A DNA stretch of 64,000 nt from a virus, in the IMG/VR virus record IMGVR_UViG_3300023199_000127, positions 62,001 to 126,000 of that record. One strand, given 5' to 3'. The notes under the pieces were generated by a model. The model was not told where the DNA came from. It saw nothing but the letters and a program-made list of their open reading frames with translations, and made no database searches. The position numbers were made by a program, and so were the translations under genes. Shown piece by piece: positions 31,588 to 54,270 of the stretch. Numbering within the stretch: the first letter of the stretch is position 1; each line of letters opens with the position of its first letter.

Positions 31588-31843
31588 TCATTCGTCTGTA
31601 CTGAGACCAAGTCATCCCAGACTCCATCAGGCGCCACTCGTTCAAAGCTATGACGATGGACAACTTATGGGAGTCACCATGCTGACGATGGTCCATGTAC
31701 ACGTGGTAATTCATAAGCGGAGACCTCTCCAGCTCTTTGCGCTCCTCGGGACTAAGCCGGGGCTCAATGAGTAGACCAGCTCCGTCCTCTCTCGACTCTA
31801 CTCTAGGAGACTGGGTGGATTTCGTGGAGGACTTGGACATCAT
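31568..31843 (-). CDS. Small charged protein, function unknown
   Basis: 91 aa from ATG 31843 (a second ATG follows at once and a GTG lies two codons before, so the start is uncertain). Ser/Glu-rich N-terminus, then PEERKELERSPLMNYHVYMD and a helical end (NEWRLMESGMTWSQYRRM). It overlaps the end of the metallophosphoesterase gene by about 40 bases. Confidence 0.5.
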   Translation of the reverse strand: MMSKSSTKSTQSPRVESREDGAGLLIEPRLSPEERKELERSPLMNYHVYMDHRQHGDSHKLSIVIALNEWRLMESGMTWSQYRRMNEFANA

Positions 31844-32456
31844 GATCACTCACTAGTTGTACCGTACGACCCATGAAGGTACGCGGTAGAGACGAGAAGT
31901 ATTCCTGGTGCAGGTGTCCAAACACCAGGTGCTCAATCTTAGTCATATCCAGAGAGTCTTTCCAGATTTCCTTGGCTACCTGATTAGAGAAAAACGGGAA
32001 ATGGGACATGAGAATGTGGGCATCACCAGCAGTGATGGCCATAAGCTGAGCATGCTGGCCCTCTTGCTCACGAGTCAAAGTGTCATGGTGGTGAGACCAG
32101 GGAAGTGAGCCATAATTACCACCCTCCAGAAGAGCAACGTCTGGTATCGGCTTCTGCTGATAGTAGTGCTTCTCACTGAGAAGAGACTTCTTCATCCAGC
32201 TTTGCCACCAGTCATTGTTCCCAGGCACGAACGTGACTTCGTATGCACTAAGGGCATTACTGAGTCTGCGGTCTGCTTTCTCCCAGTCCTGTACAGGGTC
32301 GATGATATCGCCCAGTAGGACGATACGAGACCCGATGGGAATATCACGCAGTTCCTCATGGAACCGCTCCTCAGTCTCGCTGATTGTGCCTACCAGGTGT
32401 AGGCACGAAGTCGCGAACAGCTTCGTGGTCTCGGATTGCGCCGAGGATTCGCTCAA
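31803..32456 (-). CDS. Calcineurin-like metallophosphoesterase with altered first motif
   Basis: 217 aa. GDIID (49-53), GNND (79-82), SHFP (151-154) and GHLHQ (180-184) are in order and typical. The first motif, normally DxH, reads CLH (Cys18, His20), so one metal ligand is replaced. The protein could be less active or use one metal differently. It overlaps the upstream HAD gene by 86 bases, unusually long for this genome. Position next to the sugar nucleotidyltransferase and HAD phosphatase suggests a part in the glycan cassette; the substrate is unknown. Confidence 0.7.
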   Translation of the reverse strand: MSESSAQSETTKLFATSCLHLVGTISETEERFHEELRDIPIGSRIVLLGDIIDPVQDWEKADRRLSNALSAYEVTFVPGNNDWWQSWMKKSLLSEKHYYQQKPIPDVALLEGGNYGSLPWSHHHDTLTREQEGQHAQLMAITAGDAHILMSHFPFFSNQVAKEIWKDSLDMTKIEHLVFGHLHQEYFSSLPRTFMGRTVQLVSDHDVQVLHEIHPVS

Positions 32457-33030
32457 TTGTTACCTCTTCCGGATTCTTCACAGCACAGAGACGACAGCCT
32501 GCCTCTAGGCAGGCTCTCTGACCATTGATGTTGTCTTCAACTACTAGAACCTCAGCCGGCTCAAGCTCCAACCTACGGCAGGCCTCGAGGTAAATGTCCG
32601 GATGGGGCTTTGGGTTATCGACATCCTCATTAGAAAGAGTGAATTCCATGAATGGCATAGCACCAACACCAGTGACCATCAGATCAACAGACTGACGAAT
32701 GGAATTGGAGGCACAGCCCAGTTTGTACCCACGGTCACGGAGGCCCTGCAATAGGGCCACCGTGCCGGTATCAATTCGCACAACCTCAGCAAGCATTTCT
32801 GAAGTACAGTCCTGCTTAAGCTGCCAGATGCGCGTTGCCTCTTTTCCCTCGATACCAAGCATCTTCATCTTCACATTGGTCGGCAGTCCATCAAACTTAC
32901 CCTTATGGTCTCCACGACTAATAGGGTCATGTCCTGCTCTTTCCAGAGCCTTATTCAAGGCCTGGTAGTGCAGGTCACATGCATCGAACAGGACGCCATC
33001 CAAATCGAATACGACAGCCCGGATCTTCAT
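32371..33030 (-). CDS. HAD-family phosphatase (beta-phosphoglucomutase-like)
   Basis: 219 aa. VFDLDGVLFDA (motif I, Asp9 and Asp11), CASNS (motif II), KPHPD (motif III Lys) and VVEDNINGQRAC (motif IV) make a complete HAD active site with the small helical cap of the phosphoglycolate phosphatase/beta-phosphoglucomutase group. Likely removes a phosphate from, or isomerises, a sugar phosphate. It lies next to a nucleotidyltransferase, the usual pairing for making an activated sugar. Confidence 0.8.
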   Translation of the reverse strand: MKIRAVVFDLDGVLFDACDLHYQALNKALERAGHDPISRGDHKGKFDGLPTNVKMKMLGIEGKEATRIWQLKQDCTSEMLAEVVRIDTGTVALLQGLRDRGYKLGCASNSIRQSVDLMVTGVGAMPFMEFTLSNEDVDNPKPHPDIYLEACRRLELEPAEVLVVEDNINGQRACLEAGCRLCAVKNPEEVTIERILGAIRDHEAVRDFVPTPGRHNQRD

Positions 33031-33040
33031 GCTACTTACC

Positions 33041-33868
33041 CTAGCCTGTATCCTTCATACCAAAGGGCGTAGCACTTTGCTTAGGATATACACTAATATC
33101 GCAGCTTGAGAACTTCTCCACATCCTCCGGCGTGCCAATGCCTCGCATTACACACGACAGAGTTTGGCCAATGAACTTCTTGCGAATCAAATAGTTCAAA
33201 GAAGGGGCAATGTAAAACTCCCCATTCACCATATCACCCACACGCATCATTTCCTCAATGGCTTTATCAGCCATCGAGGTTGAAGCATACACAAAGATAC
33301 CAACAATCGCCTCGGAACACGCCGGCTTCACAACCGGCTTCTCCACACAGGCAGCAATGTACTTTGTTTTGTCCTCAACACATGCAAAACTCCACTTACT
33401 CTCGTCTGCTGAGAACGTGGGAACCATGAAATCCACATCTCCCGCTAGAACCTGATACAGCTTAGCCCAACCTCTATTACCCAAAGGTTTCACCCATTGA
33501 TCACAGTTGGCAATCATGAGAGGGCTTTTCTTGTCGATGGAAATCGCTTCAGCAATCCCCACACGGGCACTACTAGCTTGGCCACGAGGATCCGGATCAA
33601 TAACCGCCTGAAACTCCGTCCGCGGATACTGATCACGCATCTGATGTACTGCTCTGCGAATCTGCTGGTCATTCTCACGATTCGTAACCAAGATACAGTT
33701 CTTCACAAGCTCCATCGGAAGACCGTCCAGCGACCACTGCAATAGCGTCTTGGAATCACCAGTAACACCGTTCTCGACAACGATCAGAGGCTTGGGAATG
33801 CTGGCATCATACCCGGCTTCCATAAACCGACTGCCTTGACCGGCCACGGGAATGACAAGATTGAACAC
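33041..33868 (-). CDS. Sugar nucleotidyltransferase-like enzyme
   Basis: 275 aa. IPVAGQGSRF (6-15) replaces the GGxGTR loop, followed by KPLIVV and a NCDQW metal-binding Asp about residue 119. This is the Rossmann-like NTP transferase fold that joins NTP to a sugar phosphate (glucose-1-phosphate thymidylyl/uridylyl type) or to choline-like groups. The precise sugar cannot be read. One base from the next glycosyltransferase gene downstream in the operon, so probably the activating step of the cassette. Confidence 0.75.
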   Translation of the reverse strand: MFNLVIPVAGQGSRFMEAGYDASIPKPLIVVENGVTGDSKTLLQWSLDGLPMELVKNCILVTNRENDQQIRRAVHQMRDQYPRTEFQAVIDPDPRGQASSARVGIAEAISIDKKSPLMIANCDQWVKPLGNRGWAKLYQVLAGDVDFMVPTFSADESKWSFACVEDKTKYIAACVEKPVVKPACSEAIVGIFVYASTSMADKAIEEMMRVGDMVNGEFYIAPSLNYLIRKKFIGQTLSCVMRGIGTPEDVEKFSSCDISVYPKQSATPFGMKDTG

Positions 33869-34678
33869 TTACCTCTCCTTGCGGGCTTCGCCCACTCTTT
33901 CATTGTACACATGCTCAATATGGCGCCAAAGTAGCCAATGATCCTGCTCCAGGAATCCAGTATGAGCTACAGCATCTTTGTAGGTCTGGGACTGCGGGCC
34001 TTGCCCGTGTCCCAGAGCCTCATTATGCTCTCGGAAGAAGAAACTACAGGGCACCACATAAGGATCACCCATGATTCCGCAATGAGCAATGATCCATGCT
34101 TCCGCACATGCACCAGCATGCATGGGATAGTCACATGCCCCAGAACTCACAAACGGTTCACGCTTCACTAGGAAGCTGTAGACGGGCAACGTAGGTCCAG
34201 TCGCAGGCACCATCTTAGTCGCACGATCAAAATCGTGCAACACCCTGCGATTCTCCTGGCCACCGGCATTCACAAAGATCGTCCTGCCACAGAATGACCA
34301 ATCGCGCTGCCACTTCTGCATTCCCTCAATCTGCATAGAGATGCGAGACCGACTACTGTAGTCATCAGAAAACTGATAAGCCACATAGTCTGCCTTGCTG
34401 GTAAGCGCATGCTCAAAGAACGGACGGTGGATTGCACCAGGCCTCCAGTTGGACCGACCAGGTCCAAACTGGAGTCGCACAGTCCGTTCTCTGGGATGCA
34501 TTCTAGCAAGCTCAGCCCACCTGTGAGCAAGAGCTGCAGTTCCATCAACAGACTGATCGTCTACCAGCAACACATCAATAGACCCATCATAGTCTTGGTC
34601 AACCAGACTCTTGATGCACTGGTCCAAAGTATGTTCTCTATTCCATATCGGAATGACGATGCTGACTGTAGGTAGCAT
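33869..34678 (-). CDS. GT-A family 2 glycosyltransferase
   Basis: 269 aa. SIVIPIWNREHTLDQ and VLLVDDQSVDGT are the nucleotide-sugar site of GT2 enzymes; QFSDDYS about residue 115 is the metal-binding acidic motif. Soluble, without membrane helices. Transfers a sugar from an activated donor to an unknown acceptor. One-base overlap with the sulfotransferase gene. Confidence 0.8.
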   Translation of the reverse strand: MLPTVSIVIPIWNREHTLDQCIKSLVDQDYDGSIDVLLVDDQSVDGTAALAHRWAELARMHPRERTVRLQFGPGRSNWRPGAIHRPFFEHALTSKADYVAYQFSDDYSSRSRISMQIEGMQKWQRDWSFCGRTIFVNAGGQENRRVLHDFDRATKMVPATGPTLPVYSFLVKREPFVSSGACDYPMHAGACAEAWIIAHCGIMGDPYVVPCSFFFREHNEALGHGQGPQSQTYKDAVAHTGFLEQDHWLLWRHIEHVYNERVGEARKER

Positions 34679-35400
34679 TAGTATCCTAGCTGACGGAAGT
34701 CCTTATGAAATGACAAAGACAGCAACCGATAAGCATCAGGATGGTAGAAATAACTAGGGAAGGGAACCTTCCCATTCTTATGCTTACACCGTTGCTGTAG
34801 ATGTTCGACCGTATAGTCCCACAACTGAGACTCATTTACACCAAAATAGGCCATGGCATTTTCGACCTTTGGCCAGGGAGTGCCGTAGTAGCGAGCAAAA
34901 TCCCTCACTGCCAACGGATCCTCTAGCGGGATGATCACTGTATCCCCAGAGGTTCTGGTATTCAAATCCCAACCAAGAACCTGAGGTTGGTAGTGTGCAT
35001 CGAGCGCGTACGGGTCGTATCTACAGACGGCCCGTACGAAGTCGAGGAAACACCAGTTCTTAAAGTCTTCCTGGTACACACAATTACGGTCAATGTAGAG
35101 CAGATCTTGCTGAATGAACTTGTTCAAAAATGCACTGACCAGACGATCCCAAGGATGCCTGGTGAACACATAAAAGTCCTTCTTGTAATCCAATCGATGG
35201 ATAGGACACCACCACTCAGAATTCTCGGCATATCCCATGCAATTATGCAGCTCGCCAATGCCCATTTCATTAGCTCCAGACAAGCCAATAAGGTTAGCCC
35301 ACCACCTCTTGATTGTGGTGCAACCAGCCCTCTGCTTCCAGGCAATTGCTAGCTGATGCTCATCACTAGAGAAAACGTTGTAGGAGTACTGGGTGCTCAT
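34678..35400 (-). CDS. Carbohydrate sulfotransferase-like protein
   Basis: 240 aa. KQRAGCTTIKRW (22-33) fits the 5'-phosphosulfate loop (PKxGCTSxKxx) and FTRHPWDRLVSAFLNKF (79-95) fits the 3'-phosphate motif (RDPxxRxVSAY) of PAPS-dependent sulfotransferases, including the conserved Arg and Ser. No signal peptide or membrane segment, unlike the Golgi enzymes, so it works in the infected cell. It stands between a GT2 enzyme and a methyltransferase, so an O-sulfated glycan is the likely product. Phages rarely carry this family as far as I know. Confidence 0.75.
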   Translation of the reverse strand: MSTQYSYNVFSSDEHQLAIAWKQRAGCTTIKRWWANLIGLSGANEMGIGELHNCMGYAENSEWWCPIHRLDYKKDFYVFTRHPWDRLVSAFLNKFIQQDLLYIDRNCVYQEDFKNWCFLDFVRAVCRYDPYALDAHYQPQVLGWDLNTRTSGDTVIIPLEDPLAVRDFARYYGTPWPKVENAMAYFGVNESQLWDYTVEHLQQRCKHKNGKVPFPSYFYHPDAYRLLSLSFHKDFRQLGY

Positions 35401-36143
35401 CTCTGTCTAAACCCACTAACCCACAACCACTCACCATGATCATCAATCGGTTCCGTCTCCCAGGTGTTTAGCGCATGAAGGCCCGCCTCCTCACATACCC
35501 GGACAATTTCCTCATGTGTGTAGGCGCATCCCTCCTCGGCTTGGAGGTGTTCAGGAAGCTCATCGTACCCAGTGGAATCTGGCTCCCCACTGGCCGGCGG
35601 GACATAGTCCCACGGCCGTAGACCATCTCGATACTTCTTCACCTGCAAGGTAAACCAGCCACCCTGCACCAAACACCGTCTCCACGAAGCCAAAATGCTC
35701 CGAACCACAGAATGATCGGCGATGTGCTGGAAGGTGATCACCGAGTAGATATGGTCCACACTGTGGGGTTCCACAAATCCCTCAGGAATACCATCGCCGT
35801 CAGCGGTGGCTACTCCTGCTACGTTATCAGCATCTCCATCCCCAATCTTGTCGGAAACAACCTGAATCATATCTGGGGAAATATCAACCCCGTACCAAAT
35901 ACCACCAAGTTGTGCAGAAAGGGGCAGCAGAAGACGACCAACACCGCAACCATAGTCCAGGATGGTCTCAGCAGGACAGCTACCCACAGCATCCAGTCCA
36001 CCATCTAGCATATGATCGAAGATCTGCTCACGATACCAGTCAACGCTGGCTTTATCGAACTGGTTGTAGCCAACACGATGCTTGAGTTCTTCTTCTCCAC
36101 CAAGCCACCGCTGTCGAGCACCCTTAAGGTACTGGTTGGTCAT
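35397..36143 (-). CDS. Class I SAM-dependent methyltransferase
   Basis: 248 aa. ILDYGCGVGRLLLPL is the SAM-binding motif I, followed by GVDISPDMI (motif post-I), an aspartate-containing HSVDHIYSVITFQHI stretch (motif II-like) and ADHSVVRSILASWRRCL. Typical of small-molecule or sugar O-methyltransferases. ATGA overlap with its neighbours in the cassette. Probably methylates a sugar on the phage glycan; substrate inferred from context only. Confidence 0.75.
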   Translation of the reverse strand: MTNQYLKGARQRWLGGEEELKHRVGYNQFDKASVDWYREQIFDHMLDGGLDAVGSCPAETILDYGCGVGRLLLPLSAQLGGIWYGVDISPDMIQVVSDKIGDGDADNVAGVATADGDGIPEGFVEPHSVDHIYSVITFQHIADHSVVRSILASWRRCLVQGGWFTLQVKKYRDGLRPWDYVPPASGEPDSTGYDELPEHLQAEEGCAYTHEEIVRVCEEAGLHALNTWETEPIDDHGEWLWVSGFRQR

Positions 36144-36961
36144 GCACGTGCTCCTGAAACAGAAAGCATACGGTCATAGCTGGACCACTCAAGGAAATCC
36201 TTCGGGTCTACGCCAGCTTCCCGTGCGCCCTCGGCAAACACCTCACCCCAGTGTATGCCGTAACGACGCTCCAACTCATAAAGCATGTTATTGCGAGCTT
36301 TCTTACGCATTTCTTCGTTCGGCTCGACCTTGGCTTTTTCGTGGTTGATATGCGTGGTACCTGGTTGGTGCAAAATACCTACATCCTGATGGATGTACGA
36401 CTTGAATCCCAACCGATGGCCCAGGTAGGCCATCTCGTAATCCACGCCCCAACCATACATGAAGTCCTTGCTAATGCCGGGCATCTTGAACTCTTCAAAG
36501 CAGCTACGAACAAAGGAGCCACTCAGCAAAGGACAAACAAACTCGACAAAAGAGGTATTCCGTACACCAGATCCCCTTTTCCCCTGCGCACTAGTTGCAG
36601 GATGGCTCTTCTGGTACGGATGAATCTGCGCAGTCGCCGGCGGCATGTCGGCGACAAGCCTATCTAGCGTTCCATCGTCCACAATCTGAGCATCATTACA
36701 GAGACACCAGTAATGGTCAAAATTGTACTCCCCATTGAACCAGATTGACTTAATAGCCTCATGGAAAGACCAGGCCCAACGATTGTTCTCACGCAACATC
36801 AGGTTGTGGTCAGCATTCCTAGTCACCTCGTCAGCATCCGAATCGGCATCGATGTTGAAGATCGTTACTTCAACATCATGCGTGGTCTGACGGATACTGT
36901 CGATCAGACTTTCGGTCATCTCACGCATATTGCGATTGAGTACCAGTGCTGCTACGTTCAT
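36140..36961 (-). CDS. GT-A glycosyltransferase
   Basis: 273 aa. Short N-terminal Rossmann strand (AALVLNRNMREMTESLI), WCLCNDAQIVDDG with an acidic ND/DD motif around residue 85, and FMYGWGVDYEMAYLGHRLG, the aromatic/acidic acceptor motif of GT2-like enzymes. Closest in layout to the next gene upstream. Transfers an unknown sugar; part of the tightly overlapping cassette. Confidence 0.7.
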   Translation of the reverse strand: MNVAALVLNRNMREMTESLIDSIRQTTHDVEVTIFNIDADSDADEVTRNADHNLMLRENNRWAWSFHEAIKSIWFNGEYNFDHYWCLCNDAQIVDDGTLDRLVADMPPATAQIHPYQKSHPATSAQGKRGSGVRNTSFVEFVCPLLSGSFVRSCFEEFKMPGISKDFMYGWGVDYEMAYLGHRLGFKSYIHQDVGILHQPGTTHINHEKAKVEPNEEMRKKARNNMLYELERRYGIHWGEVFAEGAREAGVDPKDFLEWSSYDRMLSVSGARA

Positions 36962-37692
36962 TCCATGATCCTCTTATGCCAATTAGCCCCGTACTTCTCC
37001 GTGAGACGCTTATTCATCTCACTGTAGGCGCTCTTGTAGAACTCCTCCACACTCTCTGGCGCCACACCGCTGCTATATGTCTTGGAGGCTTCATGTTTGA
37101 CAGTGATGTTGTCATCAATGACCACTCGATAGCCTCTCCGACGGGCTTGGTAGCAGGTGTCATAATCGATACCCCAACCCCTATACAATTCAGGGTCAAA
37201 GACAGGCACATTAGCCTGGGGACCGATCATTTGCCAGATCAAGTTGATGTTCAAAGCAGGACAGATGGAATCTGTCATCCGAACATCTCTAAGCCCAATG
37301 CCTTGATAGAACATCCAGGGGTACGCATACCCCTGGATTCGTTCAACCGCGGGGTGCCACCACCCAACATCATTCTTCAAACGATGATGGAAGAAGTCCG
37401 GCGATGGAACTCCGCCGGTGATCTCGAAGTCGTTGGTACACAACCAGAGCCAGTCAATAGACTCACTCCTGTGCTTTTTTACAATGTAGTTCCAACCACC
37501 AGTCATACGCAAGTTGCCACCAGTGAAATGTGTGACATACTGTGACACATCACTATGACTCTCGTCTTCGCTACCATTCTCGTAAACAAAGAGATTCCTG
37601 CCTATTTCCCATCCACAGTTGAGAAGATTGTCAACTGTGCGATCGGTTAGCTCAGCCATCTTGTAGCTGAGAATGCAGCAATGAGCACTCAT
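36958..37692 (-). CDS. GT-A glycosyltransferase
   Basis: 244 aa. ILSYKMAELTDRTVDNLL at the N-terminus, WLWLCTNDFEITGG with the acidic metal motif, and RGWGIDYDTCYQARRRG as acceptor motif; it parallels its downstream neighbour, which argues for a duplication. ATGA overlaps on both sides. Sugar and acceptor unknown. Confidence 0.7.
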   Translation of the reverse strand: MSAHCCILSYKMAELTDRTVDNLLNCGWEIGRNLFVYENGSEDESHSDVSQYVTHFTGGNLRMTGGWNYIVKKHRSESIDWLWLCTNDFEITGGVPSPDFFHHRLKNDVGWWHPAVERIQGYAYPWMFYQGIGLRDVRMTDSICPALNINLIWQMIGPQANVPVFDPELYRGWGIDYDTCYQARRRGYRVVIDDNITVKHEASKTYSSGVAPESVEEFYKSAYSEMNKRLTEKYGANWHKRIME

Positions 37693-38501
37693 AGGTAATC
37701 AGGACTCCTGCGAGGGATAGGTCCACCATTCCTTACCACTGTACGTTGACCAGGTTTGAAGTGATGAGACGCCGTCTGTGGGGTCCGCAAGTCATGATCC
37801 AGATGATACACAAGAGCATCAGTTCTGTGGAAGGCCAGGCCAGAGCGGTGCAACCGCTCGGCCATATCTTCATCCTCACCACCCCAGCCTATGAAGGACT
37901 CATCGAAACCACCCATTCTTCGCATCGCATCTGCCGATGCAGAGAAATTACACCCCCAGCAGACCACCCAAGGATTGGGCACATCGGGCAGCTGGGCATA
38001 GGTACGGCCAAAGACGGTGCTCTCGTCGAGCCTGATGTCCTTCACAGTGGCATTCTCAGCCCAGAAGCTATCATGGACCCTGATATCCAAAGACCCCTCT
38101 ACGAGGCTCTGAGGCACCCTAGAACGAAGGCCCACAAAAACGTCTTTGGGCCGGCCTTCCTGTCCATGTTTGTGGACAAACCTGGTCTCCGGGACAGTAT
38201 CACAGTCGCAGATGATTACCCGGTCTCCTTCAGCATGGCTCAGGCCCATATTTCGGGCCTGGGCTAAGCGGAAGTCTGAACTTCGAGGATGCAGGTAGTG
38301 ATACTGCAGACCGGCAAAGCCTGCTGCATCCTGCATCCAGTTGTTGGCGTAGTGGACCGCATCTCGCGTATCACCATAGCCACCGTCGTTTACAACGATC
38401 AGTTCCCAGAGAGGAGCATCAACCTGCTGGCTAAAGCCACGCAAAGTTTGGAGCAGTCGAGCATTGTCATTACAGACTGTAAGGACGACTGAGATCTTCA
38501 T
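37689..38501 (-). CDS. GT2 glycosyltransferase, chondroitin-synthase-like
   Basis: 270 aa. SVVLTVCNDNARLLQTL and VVNDGGYGDTRDAV form the donor site, ICDCDTVPE gives the DxD motif, and WGCNFS plus FIGWGGEDEDMAERLHRSG is the GalNAc/Gal-transferase-type C-terminal motif, in which the GEDED acids help bind substrate. This pattern recalls bacterial chondroitin or capsule polymer transferases. The donor (perhaps GalNAc or Gal) is inferred. Confidence 0.75.
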   Translation of the reverse strand: MKISVVLTVCNDNARLLQTLRGFSQQVDAPLWELIVVNDGGYGDTRDAVHYANNWMQDAAGFAGLQYHYLHPRSSDFRLAQARNMGLSHAEGDRVIICDCDTVPETRFVHKHGQEGRPKDVFVGLRSRVPQSLVEGSLDIRVHDSFWAENATVKDIRLDESTVFGRTYAQLPDVPNPWVVCWGCNFSASADAMRRMGGFDESFIGWGGEDEDMAERLHRSGLAFHRTDALVYHLDHDLRTPQTASHHFKPGQRTVVRNGGPIPRRSPDYL

Positions 38502-39097
38502 TAGTGTTTCACCCTCAGGCTATGCTCGCTTACCACTACTACCTTCTTACCAGTGCGGAGCACGGGAATGTTCCTCTTACGCAACTCCGGAATCAGCAGA
38601 CGACCCTTCTCAGCATCTTGCTTGTGCTCGACCTCTTCATAATCCTCACAGTCATCAAGAGCAATGATGCCACCCGACTTACAGAGTCTCTCAGCCTGCT
38701 CAAACAATTTGAGCGTGTACTCAGCATCATCTGGTCCATCCAAGTAGATGAAATCGAAGAAATTCCAGGTATTCTGCATGAACTGCAGACCATCATGCTG
38801 AACCAGGTTTACATCATAGCGCAACCCTGCCTCTTCCAAAGCAGCATCGGCACAACTGATGTCTAGGTCAACACTAGTGAAAATGGATTCAGTATCCTGC
38901 GCAAACTGAGCAAAGTGCAAGGTACTATGACCATCGCCCTTGGCATATTCCTCGGTGTTGACCCGCATGGATCCGATCTCAAGGATTTGAATCCCACCAT
39001 GCTCCTCAACAAGAGTCTGCATAGGGATCAGTAGATTCCACGCTCGATGCGCAGGATCATGAAGCTGGAAGATCCGGTCGGTGTCTTGAAGAATCAT
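38501..39097 (-). CDS. Class I SAM-dependent methyltransferase-like protein
   Basis: 198 aa. ILEIGSMRVNTEEYAKGDG is a motif I variant (Gly-poor), TSVDLDISCADAA follows, FFDFIYLDGPDDAEYTLKL matches the Methyltransf_24-type motif II, and GGIIALDDCEDYEE the next strand. A methyltransferase or a related SAM-fold protein. One-base overlap with the GT gene upstream. Second methylation step of the cassette by inference. Confidence 0.65.
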   Translation of the reverse strand: MILQDTDRIFQLHDPAHRAWNLLIPMQTLVEEHGGIQILEIGSMRVNTEEYAKGDGHSTLHFAQFAQDTESIFTSVDLDISCADAALEEAGLRYDVNLVQHDGLQFMQNTWNFFDFIYLDGPDDAEYTLKLFEQAERLCKSGGIIALDDCEDYEEVEHKQDAEKGRLLIPELRKRNIPVLRTGKKVVVVSEHSLRVKH

Positions 39098-39873
39098 TAG
39101 GGGTAGCTTGCAACGTTACCCGCATTGCGGATCACGTACTTTCCAGGGTTAGGGTCTTGATTAATGGGCAGGTTATTGAAATGCTGGTCATGAAACTTAG
39201 GTGTCGCATGTACACCACCTTCACGACCGATATGATTACTACGAGAGAATGCAGGCGTTAGGGTCATCAACGGCTTCTCTATAGCCATCATTGATGTAAT
39301 TGCCCAGTCCCAGCCTATATAGTGTTTACCCCATGCCTGTTTAGACTTGGAGTCATCATGCCAACTAGGCTTGAACCATCTCTCCCAACTGGGTCTAGTC
39401 ATTACCACGCCCAGAGCATTGAACGCCTTAGACTCCAGCAGACCAACAGGGTCTGCTGGGTTACTCCCATTATGGAAGTAGTTCAGACTAAGCCATCGTT
39501 CCTGATCAGCACGCGTAATATCCCAATACCAGTTCGCCATGCGTATTGCATCTTTCGAGAGGACTACATCCTCCTCCAGGTAGATGTTCATCTTTGAGTC
39601 GTCGTTAAACACACGACAAAGGGCAGCAAAAGGATTCTCTCGTACACCCATCCGTTTACGGTTAACGATGATCTCTTTGTGGGGCCAATCGAACTCTTCA
39701 CACACCTTCACAGTCTCAGCACATCCCGGTTCCAGAAAGCAATAGAGCTTCCAGTCCTTAAGCTTCCTGGAGTCCGGCGATTTCAGATCATTCTGCGCCA
39801 GGGTTTCCAGGGATTTTCTGAGATAGTGAGGCCTCTTCCAGCCTGTGATAGTAATCGTTCGCAGATCGGACAT
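39097..39873 (-). CDS. GT-A glycosyltransferase (GT13/GT2-like)
   Basis: 258 aa. Opens TITITGWKRPHYLRKSLETL, has IYLEEDVVLSKDA (an E/D-rich metal motif like the EED of GnT-I) near residue 100 and a GWDWAITSM acceptor motif near 200. The final 40 residues are basic and aromatic. First gene of the cassette in the transcription direction. Sugar unknown. Confidence 0.7.
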   Translation of the reverse strand: MSDLRTITITGWKRPHYLRKSLETLAQNDLKSPDSRKLKDWKLYCFLEPGCAETVKVCEEFDWPHKEIIVNRKRMGVRENPFAALCRVFNDDSKMNIYLEEDVVLSKDAIRMANWYWDITRADQERWLSLNYFHNGSNPADPVGLLESKAFNALGVVMTRPSWERWFKPSWHDDSKSKQAWGKHYIGWDWAITSMMAIEKPLMTLTPAFSRSNHIGREGGVHATPKFHDQHFNNLPINQDPNPGKYVIRNAGNVASYP

Positions 39874-39887
39874 TCTCTTGAGTCATT

Positions 39888-40232
39888 CTATCCCGCATGA
39901 ACTCGAAAAACCTGATCGAACCGCATGAAGTTATACATACAGCCCCCATCTACTATAGGACACTTAGGACCTGACAAAATGTACACAACGTCATCCACAT
40001 GAGTAGCTATAGGCGGCTGTTCTCCACCAATAATCCAGATGCCAGATTGACAAGTCAGGTACTTCAGATGGACACGTAGATTGCGCATAAACTCATGCGT
40101 CACAGCAATCTTTGCACCCTGCTTTTTACCAGAACGATTAAAATACCTACTATTAGGTCGATAATCGGATCTGATCACATCAGCATAGGGCAGAGGACGC
40201 TCTCCAGCTACTGCATGGACCATCAACGCCAT
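39888..40232 (-). CDS. Small protein, function unknown
   Basis: 114 aa. Sheet-rich with a SGIWIIGGEQPPIATHVDDV loop and CPIVDGGCMYNFM near the end. Separated by short gaps from both neighbours. No family recognised. Confidence 0.55.
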   Translation of the reverse strand: MALMVHAVAGERPLPYADVIRSDYRPNSRYFNRSGKKQGAKIAVTHEFMRNLRVHLKYLTCQSGIWIIGGEQPPIATHVDDVVYILSGPKCPIVDGGCMYNFMRFDQVFRVHAG

Positions 40233-40234
40233 AA

Positions 40235-40615
40235 CTATTTCCTGGGCAGATCAGGCCGGCTAGCATTCTCCTGGGAGAGAATAGCATCCTTGGACGACGA
40301 AGGGATAATGATCTGAGACCCATTCGGATCATCGATCATCCTATTATCGTTCTCGTCAGCAGGATTCTCAAACCAGCGTGCATGACGGCAAAGGACATCA
40401 TGTCCTAGCTGCTTGATGAACCGATACTCGTTCCGTTCAGCGGCAACCAGATTAGACCACAACGCATACCCCTTATCCAGGGCCTCAGGCGAGAGGTAAA
40501 CCTCCTTGCCACGTGTGTAGTCAGAAATCCATGCCAATACATCCGGATCTGTATCATTCATCTGTAGCACTTGCTCAATGCCTAGTGCAATGCATTTCAC
40601 TCTGAGTTCGGTCAT
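40235..40615 (-). CDS. Small protein, function unknown
   Basis: 126 aa, ATG overlapping the preceding TAA (TAATG). Helical (KCIALGIEQVLQM, LSPEALDKGYALWSNLVAA) with a polar tail. It follows the Cas4-like nuclease gene directly, so it may belong to the replication/recombination set. Confidence 0.55.
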   Translation of the reverse strand: MTELRVKCIALGIEQVLQMNDTDPDVLAWISDYTRGKEVYLSPEALDKGYALWSNLVAAERNEYRFIKQLGHDVLCRHARWFENPADENDNRMIDDPNGSQIIIPSSSKDAILSQENASRPDLPRK

Positions 40616-41682
40616 TAAATGGGACTCCCTTCGGTATCCTCCACCGGCTTAGGCTCAGCAGGAGCCAAGCTGGTGGGATTCTCCTGACGGATAGGACCGC
40701 CAGCCATGTGTTTGATGCCATGCTTGCACAAGGTATAGAACTCGCAGTACCTACACTGCCAGTCCCCCTTCTGAACGAGCGGATTACTATCATCCTTCAA
40801 TCGCTCAGGATCCTTCTTCACTGCATTTAGCACAGCCTTAGTCTGAGTCTTGTTCAGCTTGTCCCACCTACCGTGCTTGGCATACGTGTGGATACGAGCG
40901 TTGCTCCACTGGTCCACATAGTCCCCCTCAGGAACCTCCTTAGCACGAATATGCTTGACCAGTTGCTGGACTCGCTTGTACACCCCACGAACCGTTAGGT
41001 GCTTGAGGTTCCACAAGCCAGTCTCATTCTCCACACGAATGAAACGCTGATCATCCTCCACCTTTATGCCATATGCACCCTGGCCACCAAAGTACACAGT
41101 GTGCTCAACATAGTCCATGGAGTCACGGCACAGATAAAGCAGAGTACCCTTGATGTTGGGAATGAACTGACTATAGTAGTCTAAGTAGGGGATCATCTGC
41201 AACAGATGATCCTCCTTCGGAGTCATCTTGTTATCCACCGGCTGCATACAGCCCCTGGTACCCCAGAGACCAGTAGTCTTCATTTCGGTAGGGACCAGAA
41301 CCTCACCGTTCTCGGTGTTAACCGTCGGATCCGCAAGCCAGAAGTCGATCCGGCCTGAGATATTGAAACGAGGGTTCTTGAAGCTGGTTTCTGAACCACG
41401 CCAAAGCCCTGTCAGCTTGAACTTCTCCTCAATCATGTCCTGGAGATAGTTACCAGCCTCCATCTTCAACATGCCAGGTCCATCACGCTCAGTGTTGGTA
41501 GGTACGGCGCCGGTCAATCGATAGTACTGCTTACGCAGACAACCGCCAGCCACCTCCCGAAGCCCTGTATTCTCATCTGTGTAAGCAATGGAAGACTCAG
41601 AGGCATACAGACTAGTCGACTTGCGCTGGCTGGAGACCGGCGGGTCTACGATTGCTTGGGTGAGATGTTTCTTGAAAATCAT
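40615..41682 (-). CDS. Cas4/RecB-like PD-(D/E)XK nuclease with probable Fe-S cluster
   Basis: 355 aa. GGCLRKQYY (Cys48) plus WQCRYCEFYTLC near residue 312 supply the four cysteines of a Cas4/AddB-type iron-sulfur cluster. ISGRIDFWL (Asp113) and PTEMKTTG (E133, K135) are the PD-(D/E)XK catalytic motif. The family degrades DNA ends and works with helicases. It lies just after the primase-helicase and a 63-aa gene in the transcription order, so it may process ends during replication or recombination. No CRISPR array is present. The Pro/Glu-rich C-terminus is probably disordered. Confidence 0.75.
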   Translation of the reverse strand: MIFKKHLTQAIVDPPVSSQRKSTSLYASESSIAYTDENTGLREVAGGCLRKQYYRLTGAVPTNTERDGPGMLKMEAGNYLQDMIEEKFKLTGLWRGSETSFKNPRFNISGRIDFWLADPTVNTENGEVLVPTEMKTTGLWGTRGCMQPVDNKMTPKEDHLLQMIPYLDYYSQFIPNIKGTLLYLCRDSMDYVEHTVYFGGQGAYGIKVEDDQRFIRVENETGLWNLKHLTVRGVYKRVQQLVKHIRAKEVPEGDYVDQWSNARIHTYAKHGRWDKLNKTQTKAVLNAVKKDPERLKDDSNPLVQKGDWQCRYCEFYTLCKHGIKHMAGGPIRQENPTSLAPAEPKPVEDTEGSPI

Positions 41683-53081: not shown

Positions 53082-53157
53082 TGGTGGACCCGACAGGATT
53101 TGAACCTGCGACCCCCTGCGTGCAAAGCAGGTGCTCTCCCAGCTGAGCTACGAGCCC
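53082..53157 (-). tRNA. tRNA-Ala (TGC)
   Basis: Canonical cloverleaf on the minus strand: acceptor GGGCTCG/CGGGTCC with the G3:T70 pair that alanyl-tRNA synthetase reads, anticodon loop TTTGCAC, stem CCTGC/GCAGG, T arm GCAGG-TTCAAAT-CCTGT, discriminator A and an encoded CCA. Confidence 0.95.
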
Positions 53158-53514: not shown

Positions 53515-53588
53515 TGGAGGCGGGGTGGGACTCGAACCCACGACCTTCAGCTTATGAGGCTGACAAACTACCACTACTCCACCCCGCC
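53515..53588 (-). tRNA. tRNA-Met (CAT), one base short in the acceptor/T region
   Basis: Minus strand: anticodon loop CTCATAA with stem TCAGC/GCTGA, T arm GTGGG-TTCGAGT-CCCAC, CCA encoded. The 5' GGCGGGG would pair with CCCCGCC, but that needs the last C of the T stem, so acceptor plus T stem have 11 rather than 12 pairs. The perfect first pair and lack of the three G-C anticodon-stem pairs argue for an elongator (or Ile2) and not initiator. Discriminator is T. Confidence 0.85.
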
Positions 53589-53657
53589 GGGTAAAGACTC
53601 AAGCTTAAATGCACAAGGGCGCTTGAGTTGTGCCTATGCTATAGGTGCATCTCTTTT

Positions 53658-54056
53658 TGGTGGAGGCGGTGGGAATCGAACCCACGTGCTGCATCGTCCT
53701 TCCAAGGACATCTACATGTGTGTCTCATTGCTTCGTGGATTAAAGCATTCAAGCGCAATGAGCAAAGCGTCCCTACTAGAAAGCTTTCCCTTACCAGGGC
53801 AGCGCTTTCGCTGAGTCAGCAGTCTTTCCTGCCGTCATCCTCCTGGAACCTGGAGGCAAGGCTTGCGGCCCTTAGGCCGCGAGGCGAGCGACGCCACCGG
53901 AGCTCTTAACGAGCACCGGCACGAGGCTGCCGAGGGTGCGCTTGGAGCGCTTGAAACCGTTCTTTGCGGTTACGTTGTCCAGGGTTTTACGAGGCCACCT
54001 GGAACCTCGACATGCAGTCTCTTTTCAGTAACGACCAGTCGATACCGGTCGCCCCC
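53658..54056 (-). ncRNA. ssrA: Transfer-messenger RNA (tmRNA)
   Basis: 399 bases on the minus strand. 5' GGGGGCG pairs with 3' CGCCTCC including G3:U70 (alanine identity), followed by ACCA. GGTATCGAC after the acceptor and the GTGGG-TTCGATT-CCCAC T arm are tmRNA hallmarks. Helix 2 pairs CTGCATGT (54017-54010) with ACATGTAG (53719-53712). Pseudoknot 1 reads GAGG..CCAGG..CCTC GTAAAAC CCTGG, matching the E. coli arrangement. The resume codon GCA (53967) opens a 31-codon tag beginning AKNGFKRSKR and ending GGVARLAA before TAA (53872-53874), which sits in a GCGGCC/GGCCGC hairpin. It would rescue stalled ribosomes with host SmpB and mark products for ClpXP-type proteases. The tag is unusually long and basic. 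Confidence 0.95.
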
Positions 54057-54073
54057 ATGTTGTTAAAGACCAG

Positions 54074-54107
54074 GGACCCAGTCTATCCTAAAGGATGAAC
54101 TGGGTCC
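54074..54107 (-). other. Strong hairpin across the stop of the 60-aa gene, 18 bases before tmRNA
   Basis: GGACCCAGT/ACTGGGTCC (9 pairs) with an inner ATCC/GGAT stem and TAAA loop. It covers the TAG at 54088 and ends 18 bases from the tmRNA 5' end. It could terminate upstream mRNA, shape tmRNA 5' processing, or both. Confidence 0.5.
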
Positions 54108-54270
54108 AAATATAGAGGGTGTAACCCATCTGTTCAACAAAATGCTTGAATGCTTCAAGGTCATTTTTGATGTCGGGCAGATCTTCCCAATCATCTACTA
54201 TGTACACGTCGAGGATCCAGTCATCATGGATCTCCTTGATCCATTCAAAGAAAATAGGTGCGACTTGCAT
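54088..54270 (-). CDS. Small protein, function unknown
   Basis: 60 aa, ATG with GAGGA about 10 bases upstream. Acidic (VYIVDDWEDLPDIKNDLEAF) with hydrophobic ends. Last gene before the tmRNA on this strand. Confidence 0.6.
   Translation of the reverse strand: MQVAPIFFEWIKEIHDDWILDVYIVDDWEDLPDIKNDLEAFKHFVEQMGYTLYIWTQFIL

Follow-up and report, generated by a model that had tools for sequence, protein, structure and literature searches.

A one-piece tmRNA with a 31-residue tag ending in LAA, encoded by a large phage

The 64,000-nucleotide window, by which we mean the whole stretch of viral DNA analyzed here, carries a tmRNA gene (ssrA) beside tRNA genes, flanked by a gene for an ATP-dependent DNA ligase and one for a deoxyribosyltransferase/pyrophosphatase (Table 1). 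The phage genes around it comprise this ligase and deoxyribosyltransferase, a thymidylate kinase, and UvsX; a tail sheath and a major head protein are encoded elsewhere in the virus record, which also has a gene for a DnaE-type DNA polymerase. Taken together, the sheath, head protein, polymerase, and UvsX genes indicate a large contractile-tailed phage. Directly upstream of the tmRNA lies a strong hairpin of 14 pairs without a T run (54068-54107, minus strand; -23 kcal/mol, z -4.1), which overlaps the end of a 60-codon open reading frame (54088-54270). At 31803-41682, also on the minus strand, about a dozen adjacent open reading frames, mostly of 200-275 codons, form a run.

Table 1. Features of the tmRNA locus, in positions of the window
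Feature	Position	Strand	Basis and remarks
tmRNA (ssrA), one-piece, 399 nt, CCA encoded	53658..54056	-	RF00023 and ARAGORN
Resume codon GCA (tmRNA position 90), TAACC just before it	53965..53967	-	ARAGORN and script reading of the strand
Tag frame, 31 codons and TAA	53872..53967	-	ARAGORN and strand reading; LAA end in 0.18% of shuffles
Stop hairpin GCGGCC-UAAG-GGCCGC, UAA stop in the loop	53865..53880	-	Perfect, six pairs
Internal hairpin CCGG-U-GCUC-GUUAA-GAGC-U-CCGG, inside the tag frame	53897..53919	-	The UAA it contains is not in frame with the tag
tRNA, CAU anticodon, just downstream of the tmRNA	53516..53589	-	ARAGORN; RF00005, 52.6 bits
tRNA-Ala (TGC), downstream of the tmRNA	53082..53157	-	ARAGORN and Rfam
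Promoter-like site TTGAAC-17-TATATT, upstream of the tmRNA	54109..54137	-	Weak; the number of such sites is close to chance expectation

The sequence-only reading had described a phage tmRNA and had named a covariance-model search as a check. That search agrees with the description: RF00023 matches the gene from end to end (model positions 1-374 of 374) with 114.1 bits and an E value of 2.5e-45, against a curated cut-off of 47 bits. ARAGORN places identical ends on the same strand, with the coding part at tmRNA positions 90-185. This is the sole tmRNA above the RF00023 cut-off in the whole virus record (180,792 bases scanned), and the fold of the complete molecule is stronger than that of shuffled sequences (z -4.2). 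The acceptor, T arm, helix 2, pseudoknot 1, and resume GCA that had been pointed out are all readable, while the RF00023 alignment of pseudoknots 2-4 has low posterior values and mispairs. Read directly, the tRNA-like domain has the ends GGGGGCG...CGCCTCCACCA, an acceptor GGGGGCG/CGCCTCC with G3.U70, which is the alanine identity pair, an encoded ACCA, and a T arm GTGGG-TTCGATT-CCCAC (GTGGGTTCGATTCCCAC). With this anatomy, we consider it very probable that the phage encodes a functional tmRNA. Its phage neighbor genes and the two adjoining tRNAs speak for this too, as does the occurrence of intact tmRNAs, with tags of ordinary as well as great length, in other viral contigs and in named phages.

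The signals for resuming translation are also in place. A TAA frame signal occupies tmRNA positions 85-87, ahead of the GCA at 90, and the spacing equals that of E. coli tmRNA, which has UAG at 85-87 and GCA at 90. Upstream of the resume codon, AUAG or AUAA is preferred, and a +2 codon starting with two adenosines is conserved (PMC4236655); the phage tmRNA has these two adenosines in its +2 codon AAG, but its upstream tetramer is GUAA. The tag frame that follows, 96 bases long with its TAA, encodes AKNGFKRSKRTLGSLVPVLVKSSGGVARLAA, and the 31-codon tag ending in LAA that was first read from the letters is the very tag that ARAGORN reports. It closes with ...ARLAA*, a hydrophobic AA-type degron, and its UAA falls in the loop of the GCGGCC/GGCCGC hairpin; tmRNAs usually have their stop in the helix-5 loop, as the E. 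coli type also does. When the sequence downstream of the resume codon was shuffled 20,000 times with dinucleotides preserved, an LAA end arose in 0.18% of the shuffles, and we therefore regard the degron end as significant. The same shuffles gave an open frame of at least 31 codons in 42% of cases, the stretch being G+C-rich, and a net charge of at least +7 over 31 residues in 5.5%. Thus, the length and basicity of the tag are not significant as such, and nothing special is required to account for how basic it is.

The hairpin inside the tag frame raises the question of whether the true tag is short. RF00023 puts helix 5 and its UUAA on this internal hairpin and not on the stop hairpin, so that 26 nt of the tag are treated as inserted sequence, as would be expected if the internal UUAA-loop hairpin were the real helix 5 and the frame (or the assembly) had shifted by one base and so ran on. 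However, a frame read to that UAA would end in ...PRAGAR*, which is no degron, and would not start with GCA, for which reasons we hold a short tag to be very unlikely. The frame as read, moreover, ends in the LAA that so few shuffles attain, at a stop in the loop of a second, perfect hairpin. Still less probable, in our view, is that the tmRNA acts as a decoy or inhibitor, titrating host SmpB and so blocking host trans-translation. Such a role has been proposed for the form found in phage DS6A, which consists of the tRNA-like domain only, and a similar molecule strongly inhibits tmRNA (PMC4131195). A decoy would need none of the mRNA-like part, the resume signal, the open tag, or the degron end, yet all of these are kept here.

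The least probable of these alternatives is that the gene is a non-functional relic taken from a host. It is true that ssrA is a common integration site and that ssrA fragments occur in prophages (PMC9004378), and no relative was found in which conservation of the tag could be followed. Against this, neither the tRNA-like domain nor the resume signal nor the tag frame is damaged, the fold is better than that of shuffles, and the gene belongs to a tRNA cluster with phage metabolic genes on either side.

The best-supported interpretation is that of ordinary trans-translation by the phage tmRNA with host SmpB, giving a long tag with a standard Clp degron; we infer the steps of charging, SmpB use, tagging, and degradation from the anatomy described above and from what is established of trans-translation. 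The tmRNA would be transcribed together with the neighboring tRNAs and then processed, and would be charged with alanine by the host AlaRS via G3.U70. SmpB would carry it into stalled ribosomes, and given that no SmpB gene was found in the virus record by a search that recovers SmpB in 10 control genomes, the host protein would serve. Alanine and the 31 encoded residues would then be added to the unfinished protein. From the LAA end, ordinary Clp degradation is predicted, with the product passing to host ClpXP/ClpAP-type proteases. The benefit to the phage may be that ribosome recycling is kept up while host and phage mRNAs are cut during infection. The extra length of the tag would correspond to coding sequence equivalent to one more hairpin in the region of helix 5.

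Several searches were made for relatives. A distant blastn search of the tmRNA against a phage collection gave nothing beyond 29-32-base T-arm matches, a near search with 24 kb of the phage DNA returned tRNA-Ala matches only, a UvsX-based search of viral contigs gave no relative, and a strict tmRNA pattern had no match in viral contigs. For the DNA polymerase, identity to its relatives does not exceed 33% in viral contigs or 37% in named phages, and the closest tmRNAs collected reach at most 69% identity over the two conserved ends. A relative close enough for conservation of the tag to be assessed was thus not found by the tmRNA, 24 kb DNA, UvsX, or DNA polymerase searches. Bacterial genomes in which the acceptor and T arm are the same invariably carry tags of 9-10 residues, and they indicate no single host.

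How unusual is such a tag? The sequence-only reading had stressed that it is longer and more basic than known host tags. That it is long and basic stands, but this is not evidence of novelty: published tmRNA tags range from 8 to 35 residues (PMC8012679), the commonest length being 10 (PMC11915505), a mycobacteriophage tag has 25, tags of 30 and 32 occur in viral contigs, and two 23-residue tags are basic, with net charges of +6 and +8. Our census of viral contigs, made with looser tmRNA patterns, holds 67 distinct one-piece tags, this phage's included, and may take in some bacterial contigs; at least 20 residues are found in 8 of the 67 and 30-32 residues in 3. The longest has 32 residues and comes from a 138-kb contig, while the contig with the 30-residue tag (L315) has a transposase and sigma factors near it and is possibly not a phage. 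The 31-residue tag is therefore rare but precedented, close to the top of the lengths known. One could imagine that selection in the phage has favored the long basic tag for a task additional to degradation, such as attachment to nucleic acid or membranes, or a slower or redirected proteolysis of tagged host proteins; we think this very improbable. The basic N-terminal part most likely plays no role of its own, and none of the findings points to an effect of it on the location or degradation of tagged proteins, which is a speculative possibility.

Phage tmRNAs are known but little studied. The present one, with a tag among the longer ones, is a clean case from a phage for which no close relative was found. 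Together with the other long and basic tags encountered here, it shows that tag length and charge are more variable among phages than among the commonest host tags. The tmRNA is real but a rather unremarkable further case of something known, and alone it changes no current view.

Among named phages, the closest parallel is Mycobacterium phage ET08 (GQ303260.1; Bixzunavirus, Bxz1-species), likewise a large phage with a one-piece, long-tagged tmRNA beside a tRNA cluster, found by both RF00023 and ARAGORN. Its tag differs in having 25 residues, being acidic, and ending in ALV (ATDTDATVTDAEIEAFFAEEAAALV). Another mycobacteriophage, Nanosmite (L392; MW578836.1:56746-57098), has a full-length tmRNA match of 111.5 bits that is unannotated in its record and missed by ARAGORN, with a GOLLD RNA about 900 bases beyond it. 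The uncultured viral contig IMGVR_UViG_3300002092_001548 (L004, 138 kb) resembles this phage in a 32-residue tag ending in LAA, with resume GCA-AAG at position 91, and in several tRNA-like matches near the tmRNA; its tag, of net charge -2, is unrelated in sequence (AKAITNAVSAVKSAMTNVVEFFCEEESYALAA). Long, strongly basic tags ending in LAA are shared by the viral contigs L328 (net +8), which bears a phage clamp loader gene, and L344 (net +6), but these have 23 residues (ANKKRRFVYAKPAARQRRLALAA) and resume at GCC. The tags of these two contigs and their relatives are highly arginine-rich, and all three differences between the two tag types change the amino acid. Finally, compared with the standard bacterial one-piece tmRNA (RF00023, e.g. 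E. coli), the order of the parts and the position of the resume codon are equal, whereas the tag has 31 residues in place of 10 and is spanned by two hairpins in place of one helix 5.
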